A stretch of DNA of 31,242 nt from a virus. This document shows, one piece after another, positions 1,329 through 31,242 of the stretch. The position numbers were made by a program, and so were the translations under genes. Positions within the stretch are counted from its first letter, which is position 1. Each line of letters opens with the position of its first letter. Location of the stretch: positions 1 to 31,242 of IMG/VR virus record IMGVR_UViG_3300037585_001440. One strand, given 5' to 3'. Below the pieces are notes generated by a model that saw only the letters and a program-made list of their open reading frames with translations, ran no database searches and was not told the DNA's origin.

Positions 1329-1527
1329 AGAACCTATTGTAGATTCTGGAGATGATATTACTGCTGATAGACTAAAGAACGCTGCGGCTACTAAAAAACT
1401 AGCAATATTTGACGCATTCGAAATACTTACAAGAATTCAAGAGGAAGAGAATCTACTTGAGGGCAAGGCACCTGAAGAGAGAAAGGAAGAAGTCTTTAAA
1501 GGATTCGCAGAAGGTAGATCTAAGTAA
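1252..1527 (+). CDS. Small helical protein in the small-terminase position
   Basis: This 91-residue protein is all-helical in appearance: AGQKAVEELIKVAKE, then DDITADRLKNAAATKKLAIF, then DAFEILTRIQEEENLLEG, then a charged C-terminus ending FAEGRSK. Its last base is the first base of the large terminase ATG (TAATG), the usual place for a small terminase subunit. It is short for that role (commonly 140-200 residues) and I see no clear helix-turn-helix, so the assignment rests on position. The ATG at 1252 gives a 77-nt out-of-frame overlap with the previous gene. The only obvious later alternative is GTG at 1303, but that would drop the AGQKA stretch. It could also be an unrelated packaging accessory protein. 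Confidence 0.7.
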   Translation: MNIKETKKNIILAGQKAVEELIKVAKEPIVDSGDDITADRLKNAAATKKLAIFDAFEILTRIQEEENLLEGKAPEERKEEVFKGFAEGRSK

Positions 1528-3743: not shown

Positions 3744-3744
3744 T

Positions 3745-12045: not shown

Positions 12046-15000
12046 ATGCCAGTAATTAAAAACGGTTTTGACAAGGCGGCGATGAACAAGGATTTTGACG
12101 AAAGAATTGTTCCGTCCGGGCAGTATAGAGATGCTATGAATATACAAGTTTCAACGTCCGAAGGTAGTAACGTTGGAACAGTGCAAAACATATTGGGTAA
12201 TACGAGAGTTGAAAATTTAATTCCTATAGGTGATGAAATGAACCCACTTACAGGACAAGAATATAGATGTGTTGGAGCTGTAGTCGACGAAAAAAACGAC
12301 GCGTTATATTGGTTTGTCACTTGTGCGGAGTTTGACGCTATTATCGAATACAAAGATGATCCAACTAATCAAACTTCCAACACTTGCACACCTATATTGG
12401 TAGACAGGAATAAAGATGTTTTAAAATTCGATTATAACACACTTATAACCGCTGTAAACATAATTGATGACATGCTTTTTTGGACAGATAACGTCAATGA
12501 GCCTAAAAAGATAAGCATATCTACACTTAAAAATAATCTCCACACTAATTTAACTTCGCATAGTAGCATGTATCGACGAGCTGATTGGGGACAAACAACT
12601 AGTGCTATGATTAATATCGGGCCTATAAAAGAAGATCATATTACGGTGATAAAGAAAAAACCTGGTAAAGCTCCGACTATAGCTTTTTCAGATTCCAACG
12701 TTCAACGTATATATGATTTTGGTGACACGCCATCTTCTGCTTTTAATTTAACACCAATAGATATATCTATAGGTGGATCTTTACCTTTAGTGGGAACAGA
12801 TTTAACATTTACACATGAGGGTTATAGTAATTACTTTGAAGATTTTGAATATATAATAGGAGACATAATCTTACTCAGTAGAGATGATACCACTGGTAAT
12901 TTACCACAAAATTACGAATTAAAATTAAAAATTACAGGTATTTTATACGACAACTGGTGGGAGGCTGCTGGTTGGGGTAGATTTAGATTTACTGGGGAAA
13001 TTTTAGAAATAAGTAGTTCTATTCCAGTTGATGAGGCTTTCTTTTATAATTCTTACAAGAAAGTAGACACAGACGTGTTGTTTGAAAAAGAATTTATACG
13101 TTTTGCTACTAGATATAAATACGCAGACGGGCAATACTCTGCTTTTTCACCTTTTACACAACCAGTATTTTTAGCTGGATCATTTGGTTTTCATCCAACG
13201 AAAGATCCATATAATCTAGGAATGGAAAATAATATTATCGATATAAGATTGCAGGATTTAGTTACTCCAGATATTCCAAATGATGTCGCACAAATAGATA
13301 TACTTTTTAAAAAGGAGACATCTACAACTGTGTATTCTGTAGATAGCATTAGACCAGACGATCCTCCTCTAAACGGATCTAGCTACAATTACTGGAATAG
13401 TAATAGTTATACTAGTCACAAGTATTTAACAACTGGTTATGTAGAGGGCACTGGAACAGAAGACAGTACACATCATGCTACAAACATAACATCTAACAAA
13501 GGTGAATATATAGTATCTACAGAAAATATATATGCTGCCTTACCAGAAAATCAAATACTAAGACCCTGGGACAATGTACCTAGGCAGGCTTTAGCACAAG
13601 AAATTACTTCAAATAGGATAGTTTACGCTAATTATTTACAAAATTATACTTTAAAAGACTTTGAAGATAGAATATGTTATCCTGATTTGGATTTAGGGTA
13701 CGAGGAGAGGAAATTTGATCCTCTTAACACTACTGCTGTTACATTTGAAACTGGAAAACAATCTGTAAAATCTGATAGAACGTATTATTTAGGTGTTGTA
13801 TATGGTGATAGATACGGTAGGGAGACCCCTGTGTTTACAGGAAAAGATTCTTCTATAAAAATCCCATATGATATCTCTGATAGCGCTACTTTTTCTGGAG
13901 CTGCTAGTAAATCCTTACGATTAAGAGGTAGTTTAATTGGAGAACAACCCTCTTTCGCTGAGTATTACAAATATTTTATAAAACAAACGACTGGTGAATA
14001 CTACAATCTTACCATGGATAGGGTTTATAAAAACACAGGAGACGATACCATGTGGATTTCTTTTCCGTCTTCGGATAGGAATAAACTTCAAGAGGGGGAT
14101 TATTTAACTATAAAAAAGCAAGTTGATGTAGAGCGACAAGTCCCAGAAGAAAACAAACTCAAAGTCATAGATATTCAGAATAATGCCCCGGATTCTATAA
14201 AGTTCGAGTATACACAGTTAGGAACAGGTGGTGGTACTGCCGAGGATTTAGCCGCTTTGTTTTCGAATTCAAGCGCACAACCCGCTGAAGATGTTAAGAG
14301 AATAAGTATAGATAGAGAGACTTGGATAGAAAGTGAGTTTGGAATGGATCTAGACAAATTCGCATCAACATCAAGACATCTAGTTATCCAGTTCGAGATA
14401 ACATCAAATAACGTTGTTACAAAGTCAGAAAAGTATGATGTAGCGGCTTATTTTAGAGAAGAGGCTGGGAATGATGGGGTGTACAATTTCTTGCTTAATA
14501 AAAAAATCACTCCCGCTGATTCTTGGGTAGAAAGTTCTCCTGGAGTGTTAAATTCAGCAAAACTCTTAACAATTGTAATATTTGAAAAGACAAAAAAGAA
14601 TACAACTGAATTTGAAGGAAGATTCTTTGTAAAAATAATATCGAATACTCTAACTAATCAATACTTGATACCATCTGCATCTAGCACAACTAATGATTAT
14701 CAAGTTGTAGCTAGAGCATACGTGTTTAATTTATTTGACAGGCATCAAACGCATACATCTTTAAATGCCTCAACTACCGGTTATGGTATATATAATTCAA
14801 CAGAGTTTAACACAGGTAATACTCAACCTGTGCACGTTACCGCTGTAGATACTAAAACAGAACCTCGTTGGGCGGAAATAACTAAATTCAACAGTAATCA
14901 AACATCAAACCAAGGATGGTTTATTGATAATATGCATTTTGTTTCTGGCCAAGAGCCACCAGAGATGCAAGCTACACTCATGTGGGATGCGGCTCAATCC

Positions 15001-18000
15001 GGTAGAATGCACAAGGGAAATCCAGGAATGGCAAGTACTATAGACCAAGGAGTTTACGGTATGGAAGGTATAGTGAAAGCAGGCCCAGGTACCGCTTATA
15101 ATTTTAACAGTTCGGGTGATCCGAATGGGGCTAAGCATTGGTCTAATGATAAAATTCTTCGATTAAAGAGTGATTATGAGGCTGAGATTACCGCGAATAA
15201 TAATCCTTATGTTGGAACTGGAACGGATGATGTAGAATGGACTAAAGTGTATGAAGCTGATAGCACTGAAAATCCCCAAAAAGTTTTTATGCATCTCTCG
15301 TATTCTTCTGTAGGCGTTGACTTACACGATGGAGATTTCCATGTTTTGGATGCTTTTGTGTCGATGTCATGGAATACTTACACTCTTAGCATGCAGGGTG
15401 GAATGTTAGGTGAACATGCTTTTCAGTGGATAGCTGCGAAGGGAATACATTTCGACGATTCTATTTCAGGGCCTCATTATCATCACGCTATTGGTAATAA
15501 CATCACCGAATTTAACGATTACATGAACAGTTCGTCTTTAGAGGCTCACGATAGGCAATTCGATCCTTCTTTTAGAGGAGGGCCCTCGGCTGAGGCGGTT
15601 ATGAATAGATTGGTACCTGGTAGTAAATTTCAGTTCGATGGAGATGACGATAACACCTACACTATATTAAGTTCAGATGTTAAATACTTATATAATCACA
15701 CTCCCTGGAACCCCGTACTAAAGACGGATAACAATGGGGATGTTCAAAAAGGGGGAAATAGTGTTTCTGAAGCCCTACAAGAATGGTACGATTCAGGTTT
15801 TTCAACTACTAAATACGAAGACTTTAAAGAAAAGGTCGTTGATTTTGGTAGAGCTAACAACAGAAGAGTTGTATTTATTTTACAACTTAGTAGAGATGGT
15901 GCCCAAAGTAGCATTCCAGGCGATTCAGATCCTAGACAACAAGCTTACAATCCAATGGACACTGCTGACGTTGACGATTATCAAACTATTAGATTTTTAG
16001 ATTACCACGTGGAACCAGGTACGAGTATTTTACCTACTTCTCCGGCTATATTTGAAACAGAAGGAACAGAGAATATAGATTTAAATATATATTATGAGGC
16101 TAGCGATGCTTTACCTCTAAGATTGGACCTTACTGACGGAAGTGGAACAACTGGATTAGAATCAAACGGAATCTTAGCAGATAACGGGGTTAAGTACGAA
16201 AAGGATTCTGTTAAAGGTTATTTATTAGCACCTGTAGGAAGTAGAGTAACTATTAATAACCCGCCTTCTTTTCCAGGAGAAATAGATTATGGTCCGCAAG
16301 CTCAACAATTTCCCGAGGAAGATTTCTTCGTTAGAGTTGTTGATTGGGACGGTAACATACTCTCTATAGCAGGACCTGGATTACAAGCTACTGATACAAT
16401 TGCTAATGGCGGTTTAACTAGTAGTTCTAATCAATACGCTGGACTTACACTTACGTTTTGGAGAGACGATTTGAGTTATACTAAAGCAACCGTGTATGCG
16501 ATTAGAGAAATTGTAGACAACTCTAATGGAAGCGCTGCTTATATCACAAAAATAGAAATAGATCCAATGGTTTATCAAATAGGCGTTGGATTACCTTATT
16601 ATAATTGTTTTTCATTCGGTAACGGAGTGGAATCTAATAGGATTAGAGATGACTTTAACGCGTCTTTTATACAAAATGGAGTAAAAGCATCTACAGTGTT
16701 AGAAGAACCTTACGAAGAAGAAAGGAGAAAATACGGGTTGATATACTCTGGACTGTACAACTCTACTAGCGGTGTGAATAATTTAAATCAATTTATACAA
16801 GCGGAACAAATAACAAAAGAATTGATGCCGGCTTATGGTAGTATACAAAAACTATACGCTAGAGATAATGATCTTGTTACGTTTTGTGAAGATAGAGTAT
16901 TACAAATATTTGTAGACAAAGATGTTCTTTACAACGCTGATGGAAAACCGCATTTATTAGCTACCAACAGAGTGCTAGGCGAGGCGCGTCCTTTCAGTGG
17001 AGATTACGGTATATCTAGAAATCCAGAGTCATTTGCTAAGGAGTCGTTTAGAGCTTATTTTACAGATAAACAAAGAGGAGCGGTGTTAAGATTATCTAAA
17101 GATGGGTTAACGCCCATATCAAACCAGGGATTACACGATTACTTTCGAGACAACTTAAGAGACGGCGGTAAAATATATGGTAGTTACGATTTACATAAAA
17201 AAGACTATAATTTATCTATCTTTTACGCAGATGGAGAGAATTTAATTTTAAACCCAGGGTTTGAAGAGGGTGGAAACTTTTTAACAACTTTAGCGCCTGA
17301 ATTATTATTAAACCCTGGTTTCGATAATGCTACCAATGTTTTAGGTAGCGAGCTCTTGCTTCAACCAGAGCTACCCGTTACTCTCGCTGGTCAAACTAAT
17401 TTTATAGATGATTTTGATTGTGATGCTGTTGATACGAGTTACAATCATTACGGTTCCGACGTTACCACTACAGTTTCCCAGACAGTTCCAGTAACACCGT
17501 ATGGAAATTACAGTGGACAAACTATGAGAGTTAACGATACCACTGGATTGTTCCATAATATGAACGTTAAGTATGTATCTAACGTTGGTAGTTTTGGAAT
17601 GGTAGTTAATTCTTGGAGCACTACAACTCATGACGAAATAAAAATAGCTAATGTAAATCATAGTACGGGTTTTATTACTCTTCAAACTACAAACCCAGCT
17701 GGTGGAATTGCTGCTGTAGTAGGGGCTGGTGGTATACATCATGGAGCAACTATTGTTTTTGAAGATTATCCGTCTCATCTCCCTATAACAGTTAACACTT
17801 GGAATATTACAAACTACTGGACTACTGGTGTATACTTTACGGATCTTTCTACTTGGTGGAATGGGGATCCAACAGCAGGTAGCACGAACACGCAGCCTTG
17901 GAACACAACTTCATCACGTGCAATTGCGTTTGAAACAAGTGATTGGATGTGTCCTAACGGAGCCAACATAGATTACACGCAACCATCCTCTAACTTATTA

Positions 18001-21000
18001 GATATTCAATCATCAAAGAGCTATGATTTATCTTTTAATGTTTCAACGTTCCGAGACGCTGGCGGTGGATATCTTCACGATCCTGAATTTGAAATAGCTA
18101 TTTACGGGAGTATGATCAACGGGGTAGCTACCGCTGTAAAGTTTAACGTGGTTTTAAACAGCGATTACGCATGGGACCAAAACGAAAGTCCACCTGGAGA
18201 TTCTCAAGTAAGTAATTACTGGTTTGGTACTTCTACATCTTCAGCGACCGGTGATTCGGTTAATGGTACTACTGATACTTATCTTGCTAATAGAATGGTT
18301 ATTAAATTGGTATCTGGTGGAGAGGGTCAAGGCGCCGGTCTCAATCAATCTTTTCCAGTGATGGATGGATTTAGTTTAGTGGAATCAGGATATGTTTTGC
18401 CTACTAACTGGATGGTCGGTCCAGGTATGTCAGGGGTAGATAATATTATTCCAACAGCAACGAATTCCGCTTCTCTTAACGATGGAAGTGGTAGCGTGTT
18501 ATTTACTTCTCCAAACGAGATGTGGCCAAGCGAAGCAGATTACCTACAACAACATGTGGCTACAGCAAACCAACCAGGAGATTATGACCATGTTCAAGTA
18601 TCTTTCGAAGTGTTTAACCTTACTCATCATATTGGTAGCGGTCCCGGAGGAGGAGGTTCTAGAGGTTTACGCGTTTCTTTTTACAACGATAACTTAAAAG
18701 GATTCAAAACATCACCGCATGAAATTACGCTAACGCCAGGTAGTAATACTGTTACAATTAATAAAAACATGGCAATTGCCGGAACTAACGATCCTAATTT
18801 AGCTGGTCTTATAAGATTTGAAACAACAGGGAGAGACATTCAGTGGGATGGTGTTTCTTTTAATATTGACAACCTTTCCATGAAGATAATTACCCAAAAC
18901 ACGCCTAACTGGGCTTTAACTGGATATAACAACAATGGAGTTGTTGATTCGTCCCCAGCTATTCAAGGAGATTTTGTCGGTATCACGGTACCATCTGGGG
19001 CTCCTGTAATACCTTTAGATCAAGGGTGGTATAGAGTTACTTCTGAAATTGCCTCTGTTAGCACGCCAGGAAAATTACGAACGGTAATTGGACCTAACGT
19101 TGCGTGGATTGACGACTCTCCTCCAGAAGTGAATGTAAGTAATCAAACTCATTTTATTCAGACTTCAGGAACTTATGAGACTAATATATATATAGCTGAT
19201 ACCGATGATTACCCATTTTTCTTTGGTAATATTGGGGTTGGTGGAGCGCATGCAAATGGAGTTTTTGGAGTTGATTCTATCTCGTTGAGACAAATAGTTC
19301 CTTGGGGTGGAACTGTACCCGAATGGGATATAGACACAACTGGACTTGCTGCTGGGCAAATATTTTATGATGAAATTAAATGGGAAAGAAAAAGAGTGGT
19401 TACCTTTAGAGAAGCAATCGCAGGAGTACATTTAAAGCAATATTTTTCAAATAATTTATTTAGATCTGAAAATCTAACTTTAGAAAACGCTGAGTTTCAT
19501 TTCGAAATGGGAGACAAGTATAGAACGACTTTCAAGATGAAAAATGTTGATTTTGGTAATAGTTGTACTTGTAGTGTTGATCCTACGGTAAACACAACTG
19601 AAGCCCTGTGTCTTAGTGTGACTGGTGCGCAGTGGACGTGTCCTGCTGGTGTTTGTAGTATTGACCCTACAACAAACACATCCGAGGCTTTGTGTGACGC
19701 CGCTACTGGTGTTTGGACCCCTTCCTTGTTTCCCAAGTTAACGATGATGGTTTACAACGAGGTAGGTGAAGGATTTAGAGAAACTGTAGATTTACAAGAA
19801 GGCAATAAAACCTATGAGTTTGTCAACGAAATAGGAGAGCACGAGGGGAACCCCGCGACCAACCAAAATCCACTTCCAATTGATTTACTTCGACGTATGA
19901 GTTTCTATATTGGAGAATGGAACGATCCTGAAACAATGGATAGTTGGGTTGGTGATGATCTTTTTTATGGTAATATCGACGATATATCTATAGAAAAAAT
20001 AGGAGGAGGTAAGACCATTACATTTAGTGAAGATGTTAGAGGTTGGACAAGTTTTAAATCTTTTATACCGGAGTTCGGGATTAGCGTAGTTAACCAATAT
20101 TATACTATGAAATATGGTAAGTTATACAAGCACCATATTCCAGGTACAGATAGAAATACTTTTTATGGTGAGTTCGAAGAGTCATCTATTACTCCAATAT
20201 TAAACACGCATCCAGACGTTATTAAAAACTTTAACACACTGTTCTATGAAGGTAGTCAATCCAGAATAAGAGCGTGGACAGCATCGAACACTGACGGAGA
20301 ATATTATAACTTATATAACGACGAAGGCTGGTATGTTGAAAACATACACACAGATAAACAAAGAGGATCTGTAGGTGAATTTATAGAAAAAGAAGGGAAA
20401 TGGTTTAATGCTATTAGAGGAAGAGTAGGTCAAGTAGATACAGCGGCATTTAATTTCCAAGGAATAGGAACCACATTAGGTCAAATTATTACAGGGTGTA
20501 CGAATGATGCTCCCGGTGATAACCCGGATATAAACGGTTTTGGGAGCGACGGTAATATATGCGTGGCTCCTTGCGCGTTTGGTTATGCAGCCGCTAATTA
20601 TAATCCAAATGCAACTGTTGATGATGGTAGTTGTAATTTGATATTCTTTGGTTGTATGGATCCTAATGCTACTAATTACAATCCTGTTAATTCAGTTGAT
20701 GATGGTAGTTGTATTTTTCTGAATGGTTTTGAAGCTCAATTTCGTCATGCTACCGCCGCCCATAACGATGGTGCTATGAGAATTGTTCACGCAGGAACAA
20801 ATATACCAGCGAATTATTATGGTAGCACTAATAATCCACATGCCTATATTCCTAATTTCGGAGTTGATGGTATTGACCTCATTTGGAGTAGTTATGGAAA
20901 CGTAACCAATCCTGGAACATATCCTTTTTCCGAAGTAACTGGATTAAATTTAGGGCCGGTTGCAGTAACGGTGAATTCAAATAACACTTATAATCCGTCA

Positions 21001-21111
21001 GTAAATTTCAACGCGTTTATTCTTGGAATGGTTGTTAACGGATGTACAGATCCTACAGCAACTAACTTTGACTACTCGGCGAATACAGACGACGGTAGTT
21101 GTACATATTAA
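12046..21111 (+). CDS. Giant tail protein: stabilization/hub framework with inserted receptor-binding modules
   Basis: This 3021-residue protein opens with MNKDFDERIVPSGQYRDAMN and VSTSEGSNVGTVQNILGNTR, a start I recall from tail stabilization/tubular-B-like proteins of short-tailed phages. A mainly beta framework runs to about residue 1733, ending in QRGAVLRLSKDGLTPISNQG and YDLHKKDYNLSIFY. The framework appears to resume at about 2656 with KTITFSEDVRGWTSFKSF, YEGSQSRIRAW and GEFIEKEGKWFNAIRG. The roughly 920 residues between hold jelly-roll-like entries (NPGFE near 1736, NPGFD near 1756) and two Cys-Trp motifs (2509-2531, 2537-2558). The C-terminus bears three Cys/Asp repeats. Such surface modules would bind host glycans or protein; that is inferred. 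The protein probably forms the tail hub below the neck. No enzyme motif was seen. Confidence 0.82.
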   Translation: MPVIKNGFDKAAMNKDFDERIVPSGQYRDAMNIQVSTSEGSNVGTVQNILGNTRVENLIPIGDEMNPLTGQEYRCVGAVVDEKNDALYWFVTCAEFDAIIEYKDDPTNQTSNTCTPILVDRNKDVLKFDYNTLITAVNIIDDMLFWTDNVNEPKKISISTLKNNLHTNLTSHSSMYRRADWGQTTSAMINIGPIKEDHITVIKKKPGKAPTIAFSDSNVQRIYDFGDTPSSAFNLTPIDISIGGSLPLVGTDLTFTHEGYSNYFEDFEYIIGDIILLSRDDTTGNLPQNYELKLKITGILYDNWWEAAGWGRFRFTGEILEISSSIPVDEAFFYNSYKKVDTDVLFEKEFIRFATRYKYADGQYSAFSPFTQPVFLAGSFGFHPTKDPYNLGMENNIIDIRLQDLVTPDIPNDVAQIDILFKKETSTTVYSVDSIRPDDPPLNGSSYNYWNSNSYTSHKYLTTGYVEGTGTEDSTHHATNITSNKGEYIVSTENIYAALPENQILRPWDNVPRQALAQEITSNRIVYANYLQNYTLKDFEDRICYPDLDLGYEERKFDPLNTTAVTFETGKQSVKSDRTYYLGVVYGDRYGRETPVFTGKDSSIKIPYDISDSATFSGAASKSLRLRGSLIGEQPSFAEYYKYFIKQTTGEYYNLTMDRVYKNTGDDTMWISFPSSDRNKLQEGDYLTIKKQVDVERQVPEENKLKVIDIQNNAPDSIKFEYTQLGTGGGTAEDLAALFSNSSAQPAEDVKRISIDRETWIESEFGMDLDKFASTSRHLVIQFEITSNNVVTKSEKYDVAAYFREEAGNDGVYNFLLNKKITPADSWVESSPGVLNSAKLLTIVIFEKTKKNTTEFEGRFFVKIISNTLTNQYLIPSASSTTNDYQVVARAYVFNLFDRHQTHTSLNASTTGYGIYNSTEFNTGNTQPVHVTAVDTKTEPRWAEITKFNSNQTSNQGWFIDNMHFVSGQEPPEMQATLMWDAAQSGRMHKGNPGMASTIDQGVYGMEGIVKAGPGTAYNFNSSGDPNGAKHWSNDKILRLKSDYEAEITANNNPYVGTGTDDVEWTKVYEADSTENPQKVFMHLSYSSVGVDLHDGDFHVLDAFVSMSWNTYTLSMQGGMLGEHAFQWIAAKGIHFDDSISGPHYHHAIGNNITEFNDYMNSSSLEAHDRQFDPSFRGGPSAEAVMNRLVPGSKFQFDGDDDNTYTILSSDVKYLYNHTPWNPVLKTDNNGDVQKGGNSVSEALQEWYDSGFSTTKYEDFKEKVVDFGRANNRRVVFILQLSRDGAQSSIPGDSDPRQQAYNPMDTADVDDYQTIRFLDYHVEPGTSILPTSPAIFETEGTENIDLNIYYEASDALPLRLDLTDGSGTTGLESNGILADNGVKYEKDSVKGYLLAPVGSRVTINNPPSFPGEIDYGPQAQQFPEEDFFVRVVDWDGNILSIAGPGLQATDTIANGGLTSSSNQYAGLTLTFWRDDLSYTKATVYAIREIVDNSNGSAAYITKIEIDPMVYQIGVGLPYYNCFSFGNGVESNRIRDDFNASFIQNGVKASTVLEEPYEEERRKYGLIYSGLYNSTSGVNNLNQFIQAEQITKELMPAYGSIQKLYARDNDLVTFCEDRVLQIFVDKDVLYNADGKPHLLATNRVLGEARPFSGDYGISRNPESFAKESFRAYFTDKQRGAVLRLSKDGLTPISNQGLHDYFRDNLRDGGKIYGSYDLHKKDYNLSIFYADGENLILNPGFEEGGNFLTTLAPELLLNPGFDNATNVLGSELLLQPELPVTLAGQTNFIDDFDCDAVDTSYNHYGSDVTTTVSQTVPVTPYGNYSGQTMRVNDTTGLFHNMNVKYVSNVGSFGMVVNSWSTTTHDEIKIANVNHSTGFITLQTTNPAGGIAAVVGAGGIHHGATIVFEDYPSHLPITVNTWNITNYWTTGVYFTDLSTWWNGDPTAGSTNTQPWNTTSSRAIAFETSDWMCPNGANIDYTQPSSNLLDIQSSKSYDLSFNVSTFRDAGGGYLHDPEFEIAIYGSMINGVATAVKFNVVLNSDYAWDQNESPPGDSQVSNYWFGTSTSSATGDSVNGTTDTYLANRMVIKLVSGGEGQGAGLNQSFPVMDGFSLVESGYVLPTNWMVGPGMSGVDNIIPTATNSASLNDGSGSVLFTSPNEMWPSEADYLQQHVATANQPGDYDHVQVSFEVFNLTHHIGSGPGGGGSRGLRVSFYNDNLKGFKTSPHEITLTPGSNTVTINKNMAIAGTNDPNLAGLIRFETTGRDIQWDGVSFNIDNLSMKIITQNTPNWALTGYNNNGVVDSSPAIQGDFVGITVPSGAPVIPLDQGWYRVTSEIASVSTPGKLRTVIGPNVAWIDDSPPEVNVSNQTHFIQTSGTYETNIYIADTDDYPFFFGNIGVGGAHANGVFGVDSISLRQIVPWGGTVPEWDIDTTGLAAGQIFYDEIKWERKRVVTFREAIAGVHLKQYFSNNLFRSENLTLENAEFHFEMGDKYRTTFKMKNVDFGNSCTCSVDPTVNTTEALCLSVTGAQWTCPAGVCSIDPTTNTSEALCDAATGVWTPSLFPKLTMMVYNEVGEGFRETVDLQEGNKTYEFVNEIGEHEGNPATNQNPLPIDLLRRMSFYIGEWNDPETMDSWVGDDLFYGNIDDISIEKIGGGKTITFSEDVRGWTSFKSFIPEFGISVVNQYYTMKYGKLYKHHIPGTDRNTFYGEFEESSITPILNTHPDVIKNFNTLFYEGSQSRIRAWTASNTDGEYYNLYNDEGWYVENIHTDKQRGSVGEFIEKEGKWFNAIRGRVGQVDTAAFNFQGIGTTLGQIITGCTNDAPGDNPDINGFGSDGNICVAPCAFGYAAANYNPNATVDDGSCNLIFFGCMDPNATNYNPVNSVDDGSCIFLNGFEAQFRHATAAHNDGAMRIVHAGTNIPANYYGSTNNPHAYIPNFGVDGIDLIWSSYGNVTNPGTYPFSEVTGLNLGPVAVTVNSNNTYNPSVNFNAFILGMVVNGCTDPTATNFDYSANTDDGSCTY
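19570..19638 (+). repeat. Cys-Trp motif, copy 1
   Basis: Codons 2509-2531 encode a motif CSVDP..N.TEALC......QWT: Cys2509, Asp-Pro, Asn, Glu-Ala-Leu-Cys2522, then Trp2530. It is followed six codons later by copy 2 and matched by copy 3 in another gene at 22533-22601. Confidence 0.7.
19654..19719 (+). repeat. Cys-Trp motif, copy 2
   Basis: Codons 2537-2558 encode CSIDP.TNTSEALCDAATGVWT, with Cys2537, Cys2550 and Trp2557 aligned to copy 1. The two Cys probably form a disulfide or hold a small loop outside the cell. Confidence 0.7.
20572..20634 (+). repeat. Cys/Asp repeat, copy 1 (DDGSC)
   Basis: Codons 2843-2863 encode CAFGYAAANYNPNATVDDGSC, slightly shorter in its front half than copies 2 and 3. 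Repeats of the form GC-DP-A-NY-P-A--DDGSC are common in secreted proteins of marine Bacteroidota. The Asp cluster suggests calcium binding (inference). Confidence 0.75.
20650..20712 (+). repeat. Cys/Asp repeat, copy 2 (DDGSC)
   Basis: Codons 2869-2889 begin GCMDPNATNYNP and end VDDGSC, the best match to the consensus. It lies 5 codons after copy 1. Confidence 0.82.
21040..21102 (+). repeat. Cys/Asp repeat, copy 3 at the protein C-terminus
   Basis: Codons 2999-3019 begin GCTDPTATNFDY and end TDDGSC, followed by Thr-Tyr and the stop. It is separated from copy 2 by about 110 residues of a distinct beta-like domain, so the repeats bracket that domain. Confidence 0.82.
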
Positions 21112-22923: not shown

Positions 22924-23808
22924 ATGGCGTACAATAAGTATAAAAGAAAGAAGGATAAAGATGGGAACCACAAAGGTTCGCCTACGAAATATTTAAATGC
23001 TTTATTTGGAGGACCTAGAAGAAGAAGAGAACAAGAAGCAGCTAACGAAGATTTCGAAGCGCATATGGACGAATGGGATAATCAGAAGATGACAAACCCA
23101 TATGCTGGTGTAAAAAATCCTTACTCTAACTTAGAAAACCCTTACGAAGATGCTACCGTTAATTTAAAAGCATCTGAGTTTGCTAGGGAGCAATCTCAAC
23201 AATCTATGGCTAATATAATGTCAAATATGCAAGGAGCAGCGGGTGGTAGTGGAGTAGCTGGATTAGCACAAGTATTAGCCAACCAGGGTGTAAAACAAGC
23301 ACAACAAGCGTCTATATCTATTGGGCAACAAGAGCAATCTAACCAATTAAGAGCTTCTGCAGAAGCTGGTAGGTTAGCACAGCAATCCGCTGAGGGAGAA
23401 CAAAAAAGAGACTTAATGGAAAGAGAGGGGGAAAGAATGGTAGAGCAATTCGAGAGAGACAAGGTAACTCAACAACTAGAATGGAGCATGGATAGAAAAG
23501 CCGCTGCCGATCAAGCTATTGATGACGCCGCTGCTACGCGAGATAAAATGGCGTCTGCCGCTGTTTCTAAAGGATTTAGTAAATTATCCGATATTAGACT
23601 TAAAGAAAATATAACTAGAACAGGTTATTCTAAATCTGGTATACCTATATATACTTTTAATTATAAAAATGATGACGAACTATGGTCTGGAGCTATGGCT
23701 CAAGATTTAATAGAGATAGGAAGAGAGGACGCTGTTACTATTATGGACAATGGATATTACGGAGTATACTATGACATGATAGACGTTAACATGATTCTTA
23801 AAAATTAA
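22924..23808 (+). CDS. Helical virion protein with C-terminal S74 self-cleaving chaperone domain
   Basis: In this 294-residue protein, residues 1-40 are Lys/Arg-rich. Residues 55-75 hold an NPY repeat (TNPYAGVKNPYSNLENPYED). Residues 80-215 are Ala/Gln/Ser-rich helix, including MQGAAGGSGVAGLAQVLANQ and a charged coiled coil. Residues 220-294 match peptidase S74: KLSDIRLKENITRTGYSKSG, GIPIYTFNYK and MAQDLIEIGREDAVTIMDNG. In this family the Ser of the SD-R-K motif (here Ser222-Asp223, with Lys227) cleaves before itself and frees the chaperone domain, about 73 residues here. The domain usually caps trimeric beta-helical fibres; on a helical protein next to putative internal proteins it is unusual. 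The role could be assembly of a helical oligomer. Whether it cleaves is inferred. Confidence 0.85.
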   Translation: MAYNKYKRKKDKDGNHKGSPTKYLNALFGGPRRRREQEAANEDFEAHMDEWDNQKMTNPYAGVKNPYSNLENPYEDATVNLKASEFAREQSQQSMANIMSNMQGAAGGSGVAGLAQVLANQGVKQAQQASISIGQQEQSNQLRASAEAGRLAQQSAEGEQKRDLMEREGERMVEQFERDKVTQQLEWSMDRKAAADQAIDDAAATRDKMASAAVSKGFSKLSDIRLKENITRTGYSKSGIPIYTFNYKNDDELWSGAMAQDLIEIGREDAVTIMDNGYYGVYYDMIDVNMILKN

Positions 23809-23811
23809 ATT

Positions 23812-24777
23812 ATGGCAAAACAAAGAGTGAACACAAATCTACCGCTAAATAACGATGGAATTCGACCGGATCAGGAAAGTCTTTTAAACCAAGATCACAT
23901 AGAGTACGATCCGATAAAGATATACAGTGAAAGAGCTGATTACAGTAAGGAATCAAAAGTATCAGAGGTATTTGGACCACATATACACAGTAAAGTAAAT
24001 ATGTTTATCACTGAATACGCTAAGATGTATGATCAAATGTTGATTGAGGGAAACAAAGAAGCGGCGGGTTTTTTTGAAACTGGTATAAAAAAAGTACATA
24101 CACAATTAAACCACTTGTCAAACCTTAAGGATGAGTGGATGGCAATGCGAGGCGGAGGTATGAGGGGTAAGTCTACTGTTTCCAACATAACGGATCCTCG
24201 TTGGCCTGACGCGTTTTTTACAGAAAAAGGAGATATAAGTATAACGCCTGATTATCAAATTTTAGCTAACGTACCCACTCTTAAGGCTCCCCCTAAGTTA
24301 GTTAACGATATAGCTATAGATTGGGAAAGTAAAGGCGACGGTGAGGGTAGATACATGGGGGCTATCCAAGATATGCAAGAGGCTGGCGCTAGAGGAGATA
24401 AAATTCCTCCGTTTGATATAGATTATTTTGTTAGTAATTTACTAAAAGAATACTGGCCACAAGCTCTTGCGGATGATTGGGGTGGAATATACGCTTTACA
24501 AGACGAAATTTTACCAAAAATGATAGAGGCTAACGGTGGCAATATGGACGGACTAAATACATCCATAGAATCTTTTAATCCAAAAATAGATAATAAATTA
24601 CATAATTACTATGCTAGTAGGTTGAAAAGAGCTTTTGATCCTAACTACGGTAATCAAGAGAAAAATTCTAATAGTTACGATAAATACGTTAACTCTGGTT
24701 TATACAACGAAAAAGAACTCGCGTTGATAAAAAAACGTCTTACATCAGACGCATCTTCCAATAAATCTACAGCATGA
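23812..24777 (+). CDS. Unidentified late protein next to the giant gene
   Basis: This 321-residue soluble protein has a polar N-terminus (NTNLPLNNDGIRPDQESLLN), a helical section (about 55-105: SKVNMFITEYAKMYDQMLIE and FFETGIKKVHTQLNHLSNLK), a Gly/Met-rich turn (MRGGGMRGKS), and a mixed middle with DITDP-like and ITPDYQILANVPTL segments. The C-terminal half is helical (DIDYFVSNLLKEYWPQALAD, EILPKMIEANGG) with a Ser/Lys-rich end. There is no signal peptide, membrane segment or recognisable enzyme motif. It starts 3 nt after the S74 gene and overlaps the giant gene by 4 nt (ATGA), so translation is coupled and it may work with that product. I do not recognise the family; a virion or ejection role is inferred from position only. 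Confidence 0.75.
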   Translation: MAKQRVNTNLPLNNDGIRPDQESLLNQDHIEYDPIKIYSERADYSKESKVSEVFGPHIHSKVNMFITEYAKMYDQMLIEGNKEAAGFFETGIKKVHTQLNHLSNLKDEWMAMRGGGMRGKSTVSNITDPRWPDAFFTEKGDISITPDYQILANVPTLKAPPKLVNDIAIDWESKGDGEGRYMGAIQDMQEAGARGDKIPPFDIDYFVSNLLKEYWPQALADDWGGIYALQDEILPKMIEANGGNMDGLNTSIESFNPKIDNKLHNYYASRLKRAFDPNYGNQEKNSNSYDKYVNSGLYNEKELALIKKRLTSDASSNKSTA

Positions 24778-27700
24778 CTAAGACTAAATCCCCGTTAAAA
24801 CATAAAGTAGAAAACACAGGACCAATATCCCACGAAGCCCACAAGGAACTTCATGGTTTTGAAGGTGATGTTGATGCGTTTATAGAGCAGCATGATGACG
24901 ATCACGATGAAGTTGATGTTAAAAATTATGATAAAACAAGCACACAAGAAAAGTTATCGGAATCTGAAATAGCTGAATCAGATGAATTAATGAACAAATT
25001 AGATCTTAGTTCTTTTGGTCCTCCCGCGGGATGGAGATATCAAGCTGGACCCACAGGAGGCGGGGCTTACTTTGGGCCAAACGGTGAATCGGTTCCAGTG
25101 TCTCACGCTGACGCAGAAACCGATCTATATGGAAACGCTTTTCCGTGGGAGACTGTTGAATCAGAATCAGATGAGTTAGATCTAGAAGAAGTAAATGAAT
25201 TGATAGAGAATTACAATTCTAATCTATATAATCTGAAGGAATACGAATATCAAAAAGTAGATAACACTGTAGGGGCAAGTGGAGGTGGTTGGGGTGGAGG
25301 TTCAGCTGTTCTAGATCAATTTCATGCTATGGAAGTCGAACAAGGCATGGAGGCAGAGTTAAACGTCTTTAAAAACGAACTTGTAGAAAAATACGGAACC
25401 GACGATCCAGCCACAATTTTAGCTGAGGAATTAGGAGACAACGCCTTTGCTACTCAGGCTTGGGGAGATGCCGTGGGATGGGGAAAGTTTCTTAGAGGCG
25501 TAGAAATGCCGGATTTTGGTAGTATCGCAAACAACAAATATATTTACGGAGCTTATATGGAAGATTACGGTACTGATGCGGACGAAAAAGCTGTGATGGT
25601 TTTCGATTGGGTTTTTGGTTCAGATTTTCAAGGAGCAGCTGAGAATGAATCTTTTGAAGATCCAAATCACGGAAAATTTAAATATAGATTCTTTAGTGAA
25701 TATGTAGACAGATCACAAATAAAAAATATAAATAACTCCAGAAAAGCAGTTAAGATAGAAGAGGAAAACTTGGTGAAAAACGGAATGGCAGTAGAGCTTG
25801 AAAACATTCAAGAAGTAGCTTCAACGTATTACACAGGAACACATAAAGAAACTTACGATTTGTTTGAATCAGGAGATTTCGAAGGAGGAGTTGCTAAGAA
25901 TGAAGAATTAGGGTACGTTACACTTTACAACAAAAATGGGAAGTGGATAAACTGGGAAGACGTTCCTGAAGAAGAGGTTAATCTTGATAATTGGAAGGAT
26001 GCTATTGGTGATAACGGAGAAACGTTTACCTCAAAAGAAGAATACGCAGAATATATTCAAAGTAAGATCGGTACTATATCTGCGGAGGACGAAGAGAATG
26101 CTAGGATATTAGCTTTAGACAATAAACCCGATATGTTGCAATTACAGAGAAAGGCCGCAGCATACGAGGTAGTGGCAGCTGTACAACAACTAATGAGTGA
26201 GGATCCCGAACTGGTGATGTTTGATAGTGAAACGTTATTAGGAGAGTTATATGATGTTGTGATGGCTATAGGAAAAGAAGACCTTGAGGCGAATTTAAAT
26301 AAAATTATTGAAACTGGACAGATACAACCTGGATTAAGAAAATTCACCGCTGATAATCAAAATTATGAAACTTACAACAATGCTCTTGGTAAGTTTAAGT
26401 CATTGAGTAGGGCTTTAGATTTAAACCAGGATCCAACCTTACTTCCCGAAGGAAACTTTTTTACCGAGCGATGGACTACTGACTTTACGGGCATGACAGC
26501 TGACGAGGAAGTGGATTGGAATGTACAAAATTTTGGTGATATTTTAAATATACAAAAAACAGAGAAGGGGTTAGGAATTAAAAGAGATGGTAGTGAGTAC
26601 GCGAGTTTAGGAACTTGGTTTGGGCACGAGGTGGATCTTAGAGATGTCTTAGAAGGTGGTAGAGATTTTGTGGTTGATATAGCGCCTCTTGTAGCTTCTG
26701 TGATTATAACTAAAAAGTTAACTGGCGCGCAGATAACTGCTTTTGGAAACGCTTTTAGAAATATTCTTCAAATGGGAAGTAAAAGTAAAACATGGAATTT
26801 TGTTTCAAGTCTTTTCGTTGCTGGTACTGAAGAGTTAGTTGTACTTGCTGGAGCCGATCAAGTTGGAGGTTTACTTTTTGATATGGATCCAATGGTATAT
26901 AATCCTGGAAAAGGAGGGCTGGAAGAATCATTTAACTGGCAATTTGCTTTTGGTCTTGGAGTTGGTAATGAACTTTCTAAAAAAATAATACAGAAATTAT
27001 ATACTACTAAGTATGGAATTTCGTTGATGGAAAAAGTAGAAAAGATAAAAACTCTAGACAAGGTATTCAGCGCTCATTTAGGAGCTGTTAGTGGGGTTGG
27101 ATCTATGGAGATCGCTAAAGTGTTTAGTGGTGACAGTTGGCTTCAAGTTGACTTTTCTAAATGGGAAGAAGAAGGATTTAGTTCAGAACAAGAATATAGA
27201 GATGAAGTATACTACGAATCAGCAAAACATATGGTTAGTGACTATATAGGGATGTTAACACTCAATCTTCTTGGTCCTAATAGTGGTACTATGAAAGCAG
27301 TAGCTAAGGACATCGAAAACATGAAAATAAATGTTTTTAAAGTAAGTAAGGCATCTAAGATTCTAGGTATTAAAGAATCTCCGCGAAAAGTAGCTGATCC
27401 TAATGAAATAGATAACGCCGGTGCTAAAAAAGAAACTGAAGCTAGAGATAGATACCAGAAAGAATATAAAAAAATAGAAGAAGATCTTAACGAAGCTAAA
27501 GAAAAAACAAAAAACAAAGAAGAACTAAACAAAAAAGATAAAAAAGCTTTAAAAAAAGAAAAACAACTCAAAGAAAAATTAGATTTAGAGTTAAAAGAAA
27601 TTAAAACGTCTGTTGCGGACATGCAGTTCCGTAACGATTTAGTTAAAGCTAAGGAGTTGATAGCTAAAGATAAGAAAAAGCAAAAAGAAACAGACAAGCT

Positions 27701-30700
27701 CACATTTAGATTACAGAAAAAGATACAAATGGGGAAGGAGTTAAACGGTAAAGACGTTGTTGATTTTGCAAATATGACAGACACTCAATTTGAATATTAC
27801 ATAGCGAAACTACAAGTAGAGTTTGGACAAAGTTATCCTAAACTTAGGGAAACTATGGAAAGCCAAAGGGAGTTTTACAAAAGTGTAGTTGAAAACGTTA
27901 AGTCGCATAAAATTTTATTTAAAACCGAAAAAGAACAGCATAAATTTATTGAACAAACCGTTGAATTACTTAAAAAGAAGAGTGAATTAGACAGATTAAA
28001 AAAGAACAATAAGAAGGGAGAAAATGACACTAGGATTAAAATACTAGAAAAGGAAATAAACGGTAGTAAAGAGGTTAAAAACAAAGAAGGAAAGGTAATA
28101 GAAAAAGCCACTGAGGGATTAGACAAGAAACACTTAGAGGTTGTTGAATCGTTAGAAGCTGCTTTTAAAAAGAGAGTTACGGAAGAGTTAATTATAGCAG
28201 AATCTATAGCCAAAGATCTAGGCGCTGAATTTGAAATAGCTAAAGAAACTAAAAACAAAAAAGGAGAAGTAATTGAAACCGTTGAACAAGTGTACGAAAG
28301 ATTAGCTGGTAAAGGATCTGAGGGTACGGCTGGTGTTCACATAAGAGGAAAAAAAGGTCAACCAGATAGAATAATTGTCAATCCAGAAACAGCGGCCAAA
28401 GCCTTAACGTTGGGTACTGGTATACACGAGGTGGTTCATTATATATTGAGAGATGTTTTGAAGGAAAAACGAGCGGACGGAAAGTATGTGGTAACTAAAG
28501 AGGGTAGAGTTATTATAGATAAATTTTTAAAAAATTTAGAAAAATCAAATCCTAATGCTAGAAAAGTATTGGAAGATAGAATAAAAAAGAACTACGCTAC
28601 TAAGACTAGCCAAAGACTTATAGATCCAAAAACTGGTAAACCAATAGAAATAAAAGTTCCCAAGGAAGAATACTACGAGGAATATTTAACGTCGTATGTA
28701 GAAGCTTTGAAGAATAAAGAGATAAAGCTTGATAGAAGTACCGCTCAAAAGATTCAAAATACTTTTATGCCTTATATAAACAAGGTTTTTCCAAATATCG
28801 GAAAGGGAAAAGAATACTCTGTAGAAGACGCTACTAGTCTACAAAACATGTTAGAATCCTTATATGATGCGTCGAATAGAGGTGTTAGCAAGTGGCAGAT
28901 GAAAGACTTTATGAAGAGAAATCCCGAGTTAGCAGCTGGAGCTTATTCGTCGTTTAGTAAAGTTCCTATTTCCGCAGAGGTAAAAGCTAAAATGGATAAG
29001 ATAAACGAGGCTGCCGAGGGAAACTATAAAGAGCTATTAAATAAAAAGATAGAGGGTACTGATAAAAATAAATATACAAAAAAAGAAGTTGGAGAAATAT
29101 GGAATAAAGAATGGAAAGGACCTGATAGCAACCCTATGGAGGGAAGATGGTTTGATACTTATTTAGAAAAAGCTGACAATATCTTTGACGTTATGTTAAA
29201 GAAGACTAGTGAGTTTAACAGAAAATCTGGAGGTAAAATTTTAGATGAAAGAGCTTTTGCTAGTCAAGTAGTACAAGAGCTCGCCGGGCTTAATGCTAAT
29301 CAAATCAAACAAGGTGGGCACATGAGAAACTTTGATATTACAGAAATTTCTAAATACAAAAAAGAAGGTAAGTATCCTGGTTTCTCTGGTTGGGTTAACA
29401 CTTTCGGAAATCAAAAACTTTTAAACGTATTTAGAAATGCTAAGGATTTAGTTAGAGATAAAAAAGAAACATCTTTATCTGAAGAAGGCGTTGAAAGAAA
29501 AATGGATCTCGATGCTTTTGAAATGATTCAAGCTGAGACGTCTAGAGAAATAAATGATCGTATACAATTAGAGTCTGAAAAACTAAAACTACACGAAGCT
29601 TTTGGTGAGGTAAACACAGGTAAAGGTAACCAAGTTAAGGAAATTTACGACGCTATTCAAAATCAATTTAAAAACAAAGACGGTAGTACAAATATAGAGA
29701 AACTTAAAAAAGCTACAGAAGGTAAGAACTACAAAACTCTAGAGGTTGCAATGCTAGCCGAAACAGTAAAAATATTTACTGGAGGACGTACGTATAAAAA
29801 AGGACAGAACAAAGGAAAGTTTATACACGAAGTGCTTGCGGAAAAAATAAAGAAGGGAGCTAATATAGATAAGCAAGATATAGAGGCTGTTCAACCAATG
29901 TTAGATAAGTTTATACCAACTATGTTTGGTCACGTTTTACCAGAAGGTTTTATAACAAAACCTGTTGACTATAGAGACGTAGACAAACTTGGCCAACCTA
30001 TAACTAAAACTACTCAAGTTCCTGCTGAATCCGCTGGAGTGCCACGTGAAATACAGAAGGTAGCTTACACTAAACAAGAAAAAGCTGGGACTTTAGTTAC
30101 CACTGGAAAGGATAAGTTAAGAACAATTAGATCAAAAGAAAACTTTTTTGCACACCGTAAAAAATCAGAATCATCTAAAGTAATATCTGATCTTAGAGAA
30201 TCTGTTGGTATAATGTCTAACGGTACTTTTAAAACTAATCCTAGGAACGTATACGAAATAAACGGAAAAGTATATACTAGTAAAAAGAGTTTTGAAGCCG
30301 CTGGAGGAAAAGAAAAAGATATTAAAAAAGGAGTTGGAGAAGAGACAAAAGGACTGCTTTATTTAACTAGCAAAATACTTACTAGCCAACCTATTAGAGA
30401 ATTACTAGATGCAGAGGGTAGAGTTTTTGAATCTACTATGTTGAAGTTAGCAGACGGCAAACCTCACAAAGCCTTTAGTAATGTAACGGAAATAAAAGGA
30501 TTCCGTGAAAAAATGACTGAAGCTATAATAGATATTAGTAGCACTGAAGCTCAAAGAATTTCTGATATTATTAGACGTCAACAAACTGGTGAGTTTTATG
30601 ATTTCAAAATGATTGATGATGTTTTTGGAAAAGAAAATCCAGCTATCAGAGAGATTTTAGAAAACGGACTCGTAGAAGCTCAAGGATTAGAATTAATAAC

Positions 30701-31242
30701 AAAAGTTACTAAACTACAAAGTATAAAAGACTTTTACGAAACACCTAAGGAATCCGAACGTTTCGAAAAAGAAGAAGCAAAAAGCGCTAAGCAATTAGCT
30801 GAAAAATATAACGTTAATTCAGAAAACGTATCTCTTGCTAATGTAAATAACTCTCTTGATTTAATTCAAAAAAGAAAAGATAATAATGTTTTAGTTTTAA
30901 ACAATATGCCTGTTCACTATAAGCATATACCTAAAAATGCTTTAGCCGCGTTGTTAACTACTTTTGGTTGGAATAGTAGAGCTAGAAGAGAAATTATAAA
31001 CGAAGGAAAGAGTATAAACAAAACTATAATTTCTAAAGATGCAAGAGAGAATTCCGTAGCGTCATTAGATAGTTACTTTGGGAAAGAAAGAATTATAGAT
31101 AAGGGTAATGTATATGACGGTAGATATGACAAGTGTTTTGTTCCTGGTAATTTTGGTACTCTAAAAAGACAAATAAATACTGAGGCCAAACGTTTAAAGA
31201 AGCTTGTCGATAGAGGAAAACTAAAACAGTCTGAAGCAGACA
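24774..31242 (+). CDS. Giant putative virion/ejected protein with zinc-metallopeptidase motif (3'-truncated by the window)
   Basis: From ATG 24774 the frame stays open for 2156 codons to the window edge. Residues 1-150 are acidic, with a Gly/aromatic patch (SFGPPAGWRYQAGPTGGGAY, from residue 80). Two hydrophobic stretches lie near 635-650 and 677-702. Residues about 883-1165 are a Lys/Glu coiled coil. At 1218-1222 is HEVVH, within LGTGIHEVVHYILRDVL and preceded by a strand (RIIVNPETAA). YYEEYLTSY (1300-1308) supplies a possible third zinc ligand, Glu1302 or Glu1303. That pattern fits a zincin (gluzincin-like) peptidase. The rest to 2156 is mostly charged helix. Phage giant 'polyvalent' or ejection proteins can carry zincin domains and enter the cell with DNA; that role here is inferred. 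It starts in the stop of the previous gene (ATGA). Confidence 0.85.
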   Translation, partial: MTKTKSPLKHKVENTGPISHEAHKELHGFEGDVDAFIEQHDDDHDEVDVKNYDKTSTQEKLSESEIAESDELMNKLDLSSFGPPAGWRYQAGPTGGGAYFGPNGESVPVSHADAETDLYGNAFPWETVESESDELDLEEVNELIENYNSNLYNLKEYEYQKVDNTVGASGGGWGGGSAVLDQFHAMEVEQGMEAELNVFKNELVEKYGTDDPATILAEELGDNAFATQAWGDAVGWGKFLRGVEMPDFGSIANNKYIYGAYMEDYGTDADEKAVMVFDWVFGSDFQGAAENESFEDPNHGKFKYRFFSEYVDRSQIKNINNSRKAVKIEEENLVKNGMAVELENIQEVASTYYTGTHKETYDLFESGDFEGGVAKNEELGYVTLYNKNGKWINWEDVPEEEVNLDNWKDAIGDNGETFTSKEEYAEYIQSKIGTISAEDEENARILALDNKPDMLQLQRKAAAYEVVAAVQQLMSEDPELVMFDSETLLGELYDVVMAIGKEDLEANLNKIIETGQIQPGLRKFTADNQNYETYNNALGKFKSLSRALDLNQDPTLLPEGNFFTERWTTDFTGMTADEEVDWNVQNFGDILNIQKTEKGLGIKRDGSEYASLGTWFGHEVDLRDVLEGGRDFVVDIAPLVASVIITKKLTGAQITAFGNAFRNILQMGSKSKTWNFVSSLFVAGTEELVVLAGADQVGGLLFDMDPMVYNPGKGGLEESFNWQFAFGLGVGNELSKKIIQKLYTTKYGISLMEKVEKIKTLDKVFSAHLGAVSGVGSMEIAKVFSGDSWLQVDFSKWEEEGFSSEQEYRDEVYYESAKHMVSDYIGMLTLNLLGPNSGTMKAVAKDIENMKINVFKVSKASKILGIKESPRKVADPNEIDNAGAKKETEARDRYQKEYKKIEEDLNEAKEKTKNKEELNKKDKKALKKEKQLKEKLDLELKEIKTSVADMQFRNDLVKAKELIAKDKKKQKETDKLTFRLQKKIQMGKELNGKDVVDFANMTDTQFEYYIAKLQVEFGQSYPKLRETMESQREFYKSVVENVKSHKILFKTEKEQHKFIEQTVELLKKKSELDRLKKNNKKGENDTRIKILEKEINGSKEVKNKEGKVIEKATEGLDKKHLEVVESLEAAFKKRVTEELIIAESIAKDLGAEFEIAKETKNKKGEVIETVEQVYERLAGKGSEGTAGVHIRGKKGQPDRIIVNPETAAKALTLGTGIHEVVHYILRDVLKEKRADGKYVVTKEGRVIIDKFLKNLEKSNPNARKVLEDRIKKNYATKTSQRLIDPKTGKPIEIKVPKEEYYEEYLTSYVEALKNKEIKLDRSTAQKIQNTFMPYINKVFPNIGKGKEYSVEDATSLQNMLESLYDASNRGVSKWQMKDFMKRNPELAAGAYSSFSKVPISAEVKAKMDKINEAAEGNYKELLNKKIEGTDKNKYTKKEVGEIWNKEWKGPDSNPMEGRWFDTYLEKADNIFDVMLKKTSEFNRKSGGKILDERAFASQVVQELAGLNANQIKQGGHMRNFDITEISKYKKEGKYPGFSGWVNTFGNQKLLNVFRNAKDLVRDKKETSLSEEGVERKMDLDAFEMIQAETSREINDRIQLESEKLKLHEAFGEVNTGKGNQVKEIYDAIQNQFKNKDGSTNIEKLKKATEGKNYKTLEVAMLAETVKIFTGGRTYKKGQNKGKFIHEVLAEKIKKGANIDKQDIEAVQPMLDKFIPTMFGHVLPEGFITKPVDYRDVDKLGQPITKTTQVPAESAGVPREIQKVAYTKQEKAGTLVTTGKDKLRTIRSKENFFAHRKKSESSKVISDLRESVGIMSNGTFKTNPRNVYEINGKVYTSKKSFEAAGGKEKDIKKGVGEETKGLLYLTSKILTSQPIRELLDAEGRVFESTMLKLADGKPHKAFSNVTEIKGFREKMTEAIIDISSTEAQRISDIIRRQQTGEFYDFKMIDDVFGKENPAIREILENGLVEAQGLELITKVTKLQSIKDFYETPKESERFEKEEAKSAKQLAEKYNVNSENVSLANVNNSLDLIQKRKDNNVLVLNNMPVHYKHIPKNALAALLTTFGWNSRARREIINEGKSINKTIISKDARENSVASLDSYFGKERIIDKGNVYDGRYDKCFVPGNFGTLKRQINTEAKRLKKLVDRGKLKQSEAD

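Follow-up and report, generated by a model that had tools for sequence, protein, structure and literature searches.

What is encoded by a giant open reading frame that fills the end of a viral contig, and what would a protease signature in the middle of its product be for? The window considered here (the whole of a public virus record, 31,242 bp) ends inside such a frame, the product of which carries a central HEVVH motif. Ejected giant proteins are active during the first minutes of an infection, ahead of any phage gene expression, and very few of them are understood. Among the polyvalent proteins of phages, zincins are the commonest domain and probably serve in processing; DdrB of P1 is cut before packaging, and the vRNAP of N4 is packaged uncut (Iyer et al., 2017, PMC5512222). 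The polyvalent class and the hypotheses on its zincins are thus already published (PMC5512222), and what is new here is an uncatalogued zincin, a mosaic layout and a nested kinase.

The giant gene and its completion

The sequence-only reading had described an uninterrupted frame running off the window, which was borne out, as the frame is open from its ATG to the record end over 2,156 codons (Table 1). Its suggestion of extending the contig to the stop codon could be followed by means of a near-identical record (IMGVR_UViG_3300025099_000045; 41,625 bp), which shows four single-base differences from the window across the shared 31 kb and contains the complete gene (L002:10001-22219; 4,072 codons, 4,072 aa).

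Ahead of the HEVVH motif, two moderately hydrophobic segments could conceivably touch a membrane, as judged from hydropathy. The long Lys/Glu coiled coil that had been described in front of the motif was confirmed in its composition (residues 880–1180; Lys 21%, Glu 16%); this stretch is probably helical, with the AlphaFold2 (AF2) model supporting a helix only from residue 1091 on.

Table 1. Features of the window, with positions counted from its first base
Feature	Positions	Strand	Basis or remark
Terminase large subunit and portal	1527..6135	+	Place the phage beside Elemovirus, Pervagoviridae and Pachyviridae
3,021-aa virion structural protein, crassvirus-muzzle C-terminal domain	12046..21111	+	
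294-aa virion-type protein, C-terminal Peptidase_S74 intramolecular chaperone (ordinary tail-fibre type)	22924..23808	+	
321-aa gene directly upstream of the giant, 4-bp overlap with the giant start	23812..24777	+	No family match
Giant gene, 5' part, 2,156 codons	24774..31242	+	Rest on near-identical contig, L002:10001-22219
Two moderately hydrophobic segments, residues 628–694	26655..26855	+	Kyte-Doolittle 1.3–1.5
Lys/Glu-rich stretch before the zincin, residues 880–1180	27411..28313	+	Composition; AF2 helix from 1091
Zincin-like metallopeptidase core, residues 1149–1319	28218..28730	+	AF2 pLDDT above 90 over most
HEVVH, residues 1218–1222, predicted zinc ligands and catalytic Glu	28425..28439	+	AF2 helix 1215–1229
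Tyr1274	28593..28595	+	Tyr in 81% of 74 relatives
Glu1303, predicted third zinc ligand	28680..28682	+	Start of AF2 helix 1303–1313

The phage and its structural gene block

The terminase and portal are closest to those of Manatee Spring phage (64% and 52%, respectively), followed by those of Maribacter phage Panino and Flavobacterium Elemovirus (46% for the terminase); further relatives are Cellulophaga phi40:1 and phi38:1 (Pervagoviridae), Cellulophaga phi18:3 (Pachyviridae) and Tenacibaculum Gundel. Here, as in several relatives, the giant closes the structural block as its last large gene; the proteins at the equivalent position have lengths of 3,859 aa (Manatee Spring phage), 3,694 aa (Elemovirus), 1,829 aa (Panino), 1,691 aa (phi40:1) and 1,935 aa (phi18:3). 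At the other end of the window, a GroES-like co-chaperonin gene (717–1328) lies beside the terminase gene, and a GroES-like gene is found there in Elemovirus, phi18:3 and Panino as well.

The rear half: a phosphatase, a nested kinase and a C-terminal module

Past the window edge, the sequence-only reading had envisaged perhaps a virion polymerase or a lytic domain. Neither was found; the completed chain instead holds a HAD phosphatase with a P-loop kinase, followed by a conserved C-terminal module. A virion polymerase was rejected, since none is matched over the 4,072 aa in Pfam, PHROGs and NCBIfam.

The HAD-type phosphatase (residues 2476–2812; L020:9980-11239) displays DFDDT, TAR, K and DD motifs, and DFD-T, TAR, K2791 and DD are conserved in all or nearly all of 68 rows. 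Inserted inside it is the P-loop kinase, which is matched by both AAA_33 and Zeta_toxin of Pfam above cut-off, and which conserves a Walker A motif, D2536 and a DGTG motif. The insertion occurs at one exact point of the HAD and is all or none, with a DFDDT-to-TAR distance of 278 residues in the 32 members that have the kinase and of 78–81 residues in the 37 that do not. Three members carry unrelated inserts at the same point, and on a tree of the C-terminal module the presence of the kinase switches about nine times. A search of the literature for kinases placed inside a HAD gave nothing. The best Foldseek match of the kinase model is 4gp6 (E = 2e-8, TM 0.74 on the target), which suggests a polynucleotide-kinase-like enzyme; a zeta-type sugar kinase activity, in line with the Zeta_toxin match, is just as possible as an activity on polynucleotide ends.

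After the HAD and kinase comes the conserved C-terminal module of ~700 residues (3230–3960), a candidate packaging module for the delivery of cargo into bacteria. The chain closes with a Lys-rich tail (residues ~3960–4072) in which two Cys/His finger-like (CCCH-like) repeats can be seen, zf-TRM13_CCCH of Pfam matching just above cut-off.

A family with one rear half and many front halves

A scan with the HAD/kinase domain returned 104 viral loci. Taking the best 80 of these 104 and adding three from a zincin scan left 81 distinct ORFs, the longest of which has 4,520 aa. HExxH is present in 74 of the 81, nearly all of which had been gathered by a different domain (the HAD/kinase), and the zincin typically lies about 1,000 residues ahead of the HAD (897–1303). 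Homologues without the His and Glu residues, which the sequence-only reading had regarded as evidence against its proposal, are marginal in number. The seven exceptions comprise two 5'-truncated fragments (L033 and L055), two HExxxH variants (L062 and L071), one member with HDGIH (L017) and two without a zincin domain (L088 and L089). The giant of Manatee Spring phage (L006:741-12320) has two HExxH motifs, at residues 1615 and 2500, and perhaps two zincins.

The two halves of the chain differ widely in conservation, with a mean identity of 18% for the zincin vs 52% for the HAD. In pairs that are 60–80% identical in the C-terminal module, the zincins are only about 21–24% identical; in pairwise BLAST of such giants, the rear halves are roughly 55–73% identical, and the identity begins between a few and about 300 residues before the HAD motif, with little or nothing earlier in many pairs. 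Grouped by coverage, 76 front halves (~2,000 residues) make up 26 types, with a sharp homology break near the HAD, and nearly all of these types keep the zincin. Rear halves reach at least 70% identity in 118 pairs, and in 56 of these pairs less than 10% of the front halves can be aligned. Because the upstream genes are also less alike in pairs with similar rear halves, the exchange appears often to take in part of the tail module. The family, which spans about 100 viral contigs, amounts to a natural experiment in which one rear half is combined with 26 types of front half and the same kind of protease. In isolated phage genomes, tblastn matched neither the front half encoded in the window nor the C-terminal module; host-genome matches come from metagenome-assembled bins only.

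An uncatalogued zincin domain

HEVVH is the sole HExxH in the 4,072-aa giant, where 0.06 would be expected by chance from composition. The sequence-only reading placed the motif in a good zincin setting with a later Glu at residue 1302 or 1303, and the position of the motif was confirmed, and the fold order and the Glu (E1303) proved to be conserved in the family. Within YYEEYLTSY, which begins at residue 1300, E1303 is Glu in 98% of the 74 aligned family members (90% or more in a separate second alignment), and position 1310 is occupied by Glu or Asp in 91% of the 74. Since these members were picked for their HExxH, only E1303 and a held-out test are independent of that choice. In the latter, zincin profiles were built with each front-half type left out in turn and were run with the HMMER filters off; they recovered 70 of 76 members and 23 of 26 N-types, and the best E for shuffled sequences was 65. 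A profile lacking the giant's own type still matches the giant at E = 1e-19, and the zincin profile also matches the syntenic Elemovirus giant, annotated 'structural protein', at E = 9e-13. A chance HExxH is ruled out by this conservation and by the held-out profiles.

The structure prediction that had been proposed for this region, run with AF2 on 70 sequences, yields a confident core in which an N-terminal helix, a beta sheet, the active-site (HEVVH) helix and the Glu helix follow one another in the order of zincins, with HEVVH and E1303 on separate helices. In these independent tests on sequence and model, the predicted zincin domain is genuine, and HEVVH with E1303 (Table 1) would constitute a Glu-type zinc metallopeptidase with putative protease activity. 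No Pfam peptidase model matches any member of the family, a sequence search of the PDB gave nothing significant (weak chance matches only, mostly polymerase beta), and Foldseek of the zincin model against the PDB likewise gave nothing significant (top E = 0.41). The family is uncatalogued, with no matching Pfam or PDB family; the same model finds one uncultured-virus protein in BFVD at E = 1.5e-10.

Probable packaging in the virion

Two of the proteins at the equivalent position, phi40:1 gp101 and phi18:3 gp123, carry a structural annotation based on experimental MS/MS. An N-terminal profile built from these two and from the Elemovirus and Panino proteins matches four family members (E from 4e-25 to 4e-18) and 28 after iteration; it does not reach the N-terminus of the giant studied here, which is of another type. 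We infer the packaging of this giant from its family and gene position, its own N-terminus being unmatched. The giant also has the traits of a polyvalent protein, namely unrelated domains (zincin, P-loop kinase and HAD) in one chain, encoded beside virion late genes. The layout of a polyvalent or ejected protein, which had been recognized earlier, accordingly finds support in synteny and in the N-terminal homology of relatives to MS/MS-annotated virion proteins, and the giant is very probably an ejected 'polyvalent' protein of the virion, as far as relatives and gene order can tell.

What the zincin may do

We favour, with moderate confidence, an explanation in which the giant is a polyvalent virion ejection protein and the zincin most likely cuts its own chain. 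Encoded among the late structural genes, the giant would be packaged in the virion and would enter the cell along with the DNA. The front ~2,400 residues would represent an exchangeable payload, and the HAD/kinase with the C-terminal module a common chassis with a presumed role in packaging or ejection. Either in the particle or just after entry, the zincin would then free separately folded domains. Self-processing is favoured because the zincin is kept in nearly all of the otherwise unrelated front halves, and it is kept there at the distance from the HAD given above, as expected of a processing domain. As the MS/MS-annotated Cellulophaga giants are without HExxH and two family members are without the domain, the zincin is not indispensable, and the uncut packaging of the N4 vRNAP, which has a similar domain (PMC5512222), also speaks against self-processing. 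This family allows a direct test of the proposal, already in the literature, that polyvalent proteins are processed by their zincins.

The main alternative, which we consider rather unlikely, is that the zincin is an injected effector cutting host proteins (of defence, of the envelope, or transcription factors) while the giant chain stays intact. Metallopeptidases (MPTases) serve as effectors in other conflict systems (PMC5512222), and both the zincin and the front half as a whole change much more quickly than the rear half, in an arms-race-like manner; such fast divergence of the zincin relative to the HAD would also suit a host-directed enzyme. However, a single host target would not obviously need a zincin kept at a similar position in almost all of 26 unrelated front halves, and the sequence points to no target or specificity.

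Still less probable, in our estimate, is a structural or regulatory role of the zincin, which would then resemble the C1 domain of the N4 vRNAP (itself with an HExxH) and assist packing, unfolding or regulation. N4 gp50 has the same order, in that a large helical C-terminal domain comes after the HExxH domain (PMC12633501), and the consulted passages of the N4 paper mention no protease activity of C1; a conserved Glu follows the first His of the motif by 82 residues in gp50 and by 85 in the giant, gp50 is packaged unprocessed (PMC5512222), and family members with HDGIH or without the domain exist. Against this, the catalytic Glu and the three ligands hardly ever change in a domain that otherwise drifts to 18% identity, which is a mark of catalysis, and the profile-profile link to the N4 domain (hhalign probability 26.6% over 22 columns; hmmsearch E = 0.014 on the HELVH region) does not establish homology. 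That the giant is an unpackaged cytoplasmic late protein, as its unmatched N-terminus might suggest, is very improbable in view of its synteny with MS/MS-annotated structural proteins in two phage families and of the 28 relatives that are N-terminally homologous to them.

Returning to self-processing, a bolder version, to which we give little credence as a whole, would make the giant a 'reverse polymorphic' effector: the constant C-terminal half would package and eject the chain, the zincin would free the N-terminal payload after entry, and the optional kinase/phosphatase would heal ends of RNA or DNA that host defence had broken.

Comparison with known systems

Polyvalent proteins with an MPTase (PMC5512222) resemble the giant in joining unrelated enzymes in one chain, with a central zincin and beside virion genes, and their MPTase core has the same N-terminal helix, sheet, HExxH helix and later Glu helix. 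In contrast to these, the zincin family of the giant is without a Pfam peptidase match, and the giant keeps its rear half constant while the front is swapped. In the main text of that survey (PMC5512222), the word 'phosphatase' is absent, and no domain is named as HAD. N4 gp50 (Schitoviridae), a 3,500-aa ejected protein, likewise comes last in its block of virion genes and has an HExxH followed by a helical domain, whereas no T7-type RNAP domain was detected in the giant with Pfam, PHROGs and NCBIfam.

Closer at hand, the Elemovirus giant, phi40:1 gp101 and phi18:3 gp123 are, like the giant, products of the last structural gene, and they share their N-terminal module with 28 family members. 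The Elemovirus protein has a homologous zincin, whereas the Cellulophaga copies (1,691–1,935 aa) have no detectable HExxH, HAD, kinase or C-terminal module. With respect to the rear half, T4 Pnkp likewise combines a P-loop kinase fold with a HAD phosphatase, and the giant's kinase fold can also be likened to the Clostridium thermocellum Pnkp kinase and to zeta kinases; unlike in Pnkp, the kinase of the giant lies within the HAD instead of next to it, and Pfam names it AAA_33/Zeta_toxin.

Large cargo proteins of short-tailed Bacteroidota phages are also known in Crassvirales (gp45–gp50 of phi-crAss001, PMC10172136). Crassvirus cargo includes RNA polymerase-associated proteins (PMC10172136), whereas no polymerase was detected in the giant. 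As in Crassvirales, the window encodes a protein with a muzzle-type C-terminal domain (12046–21111), here in a phage with its closest relatives outside Crassvirales.
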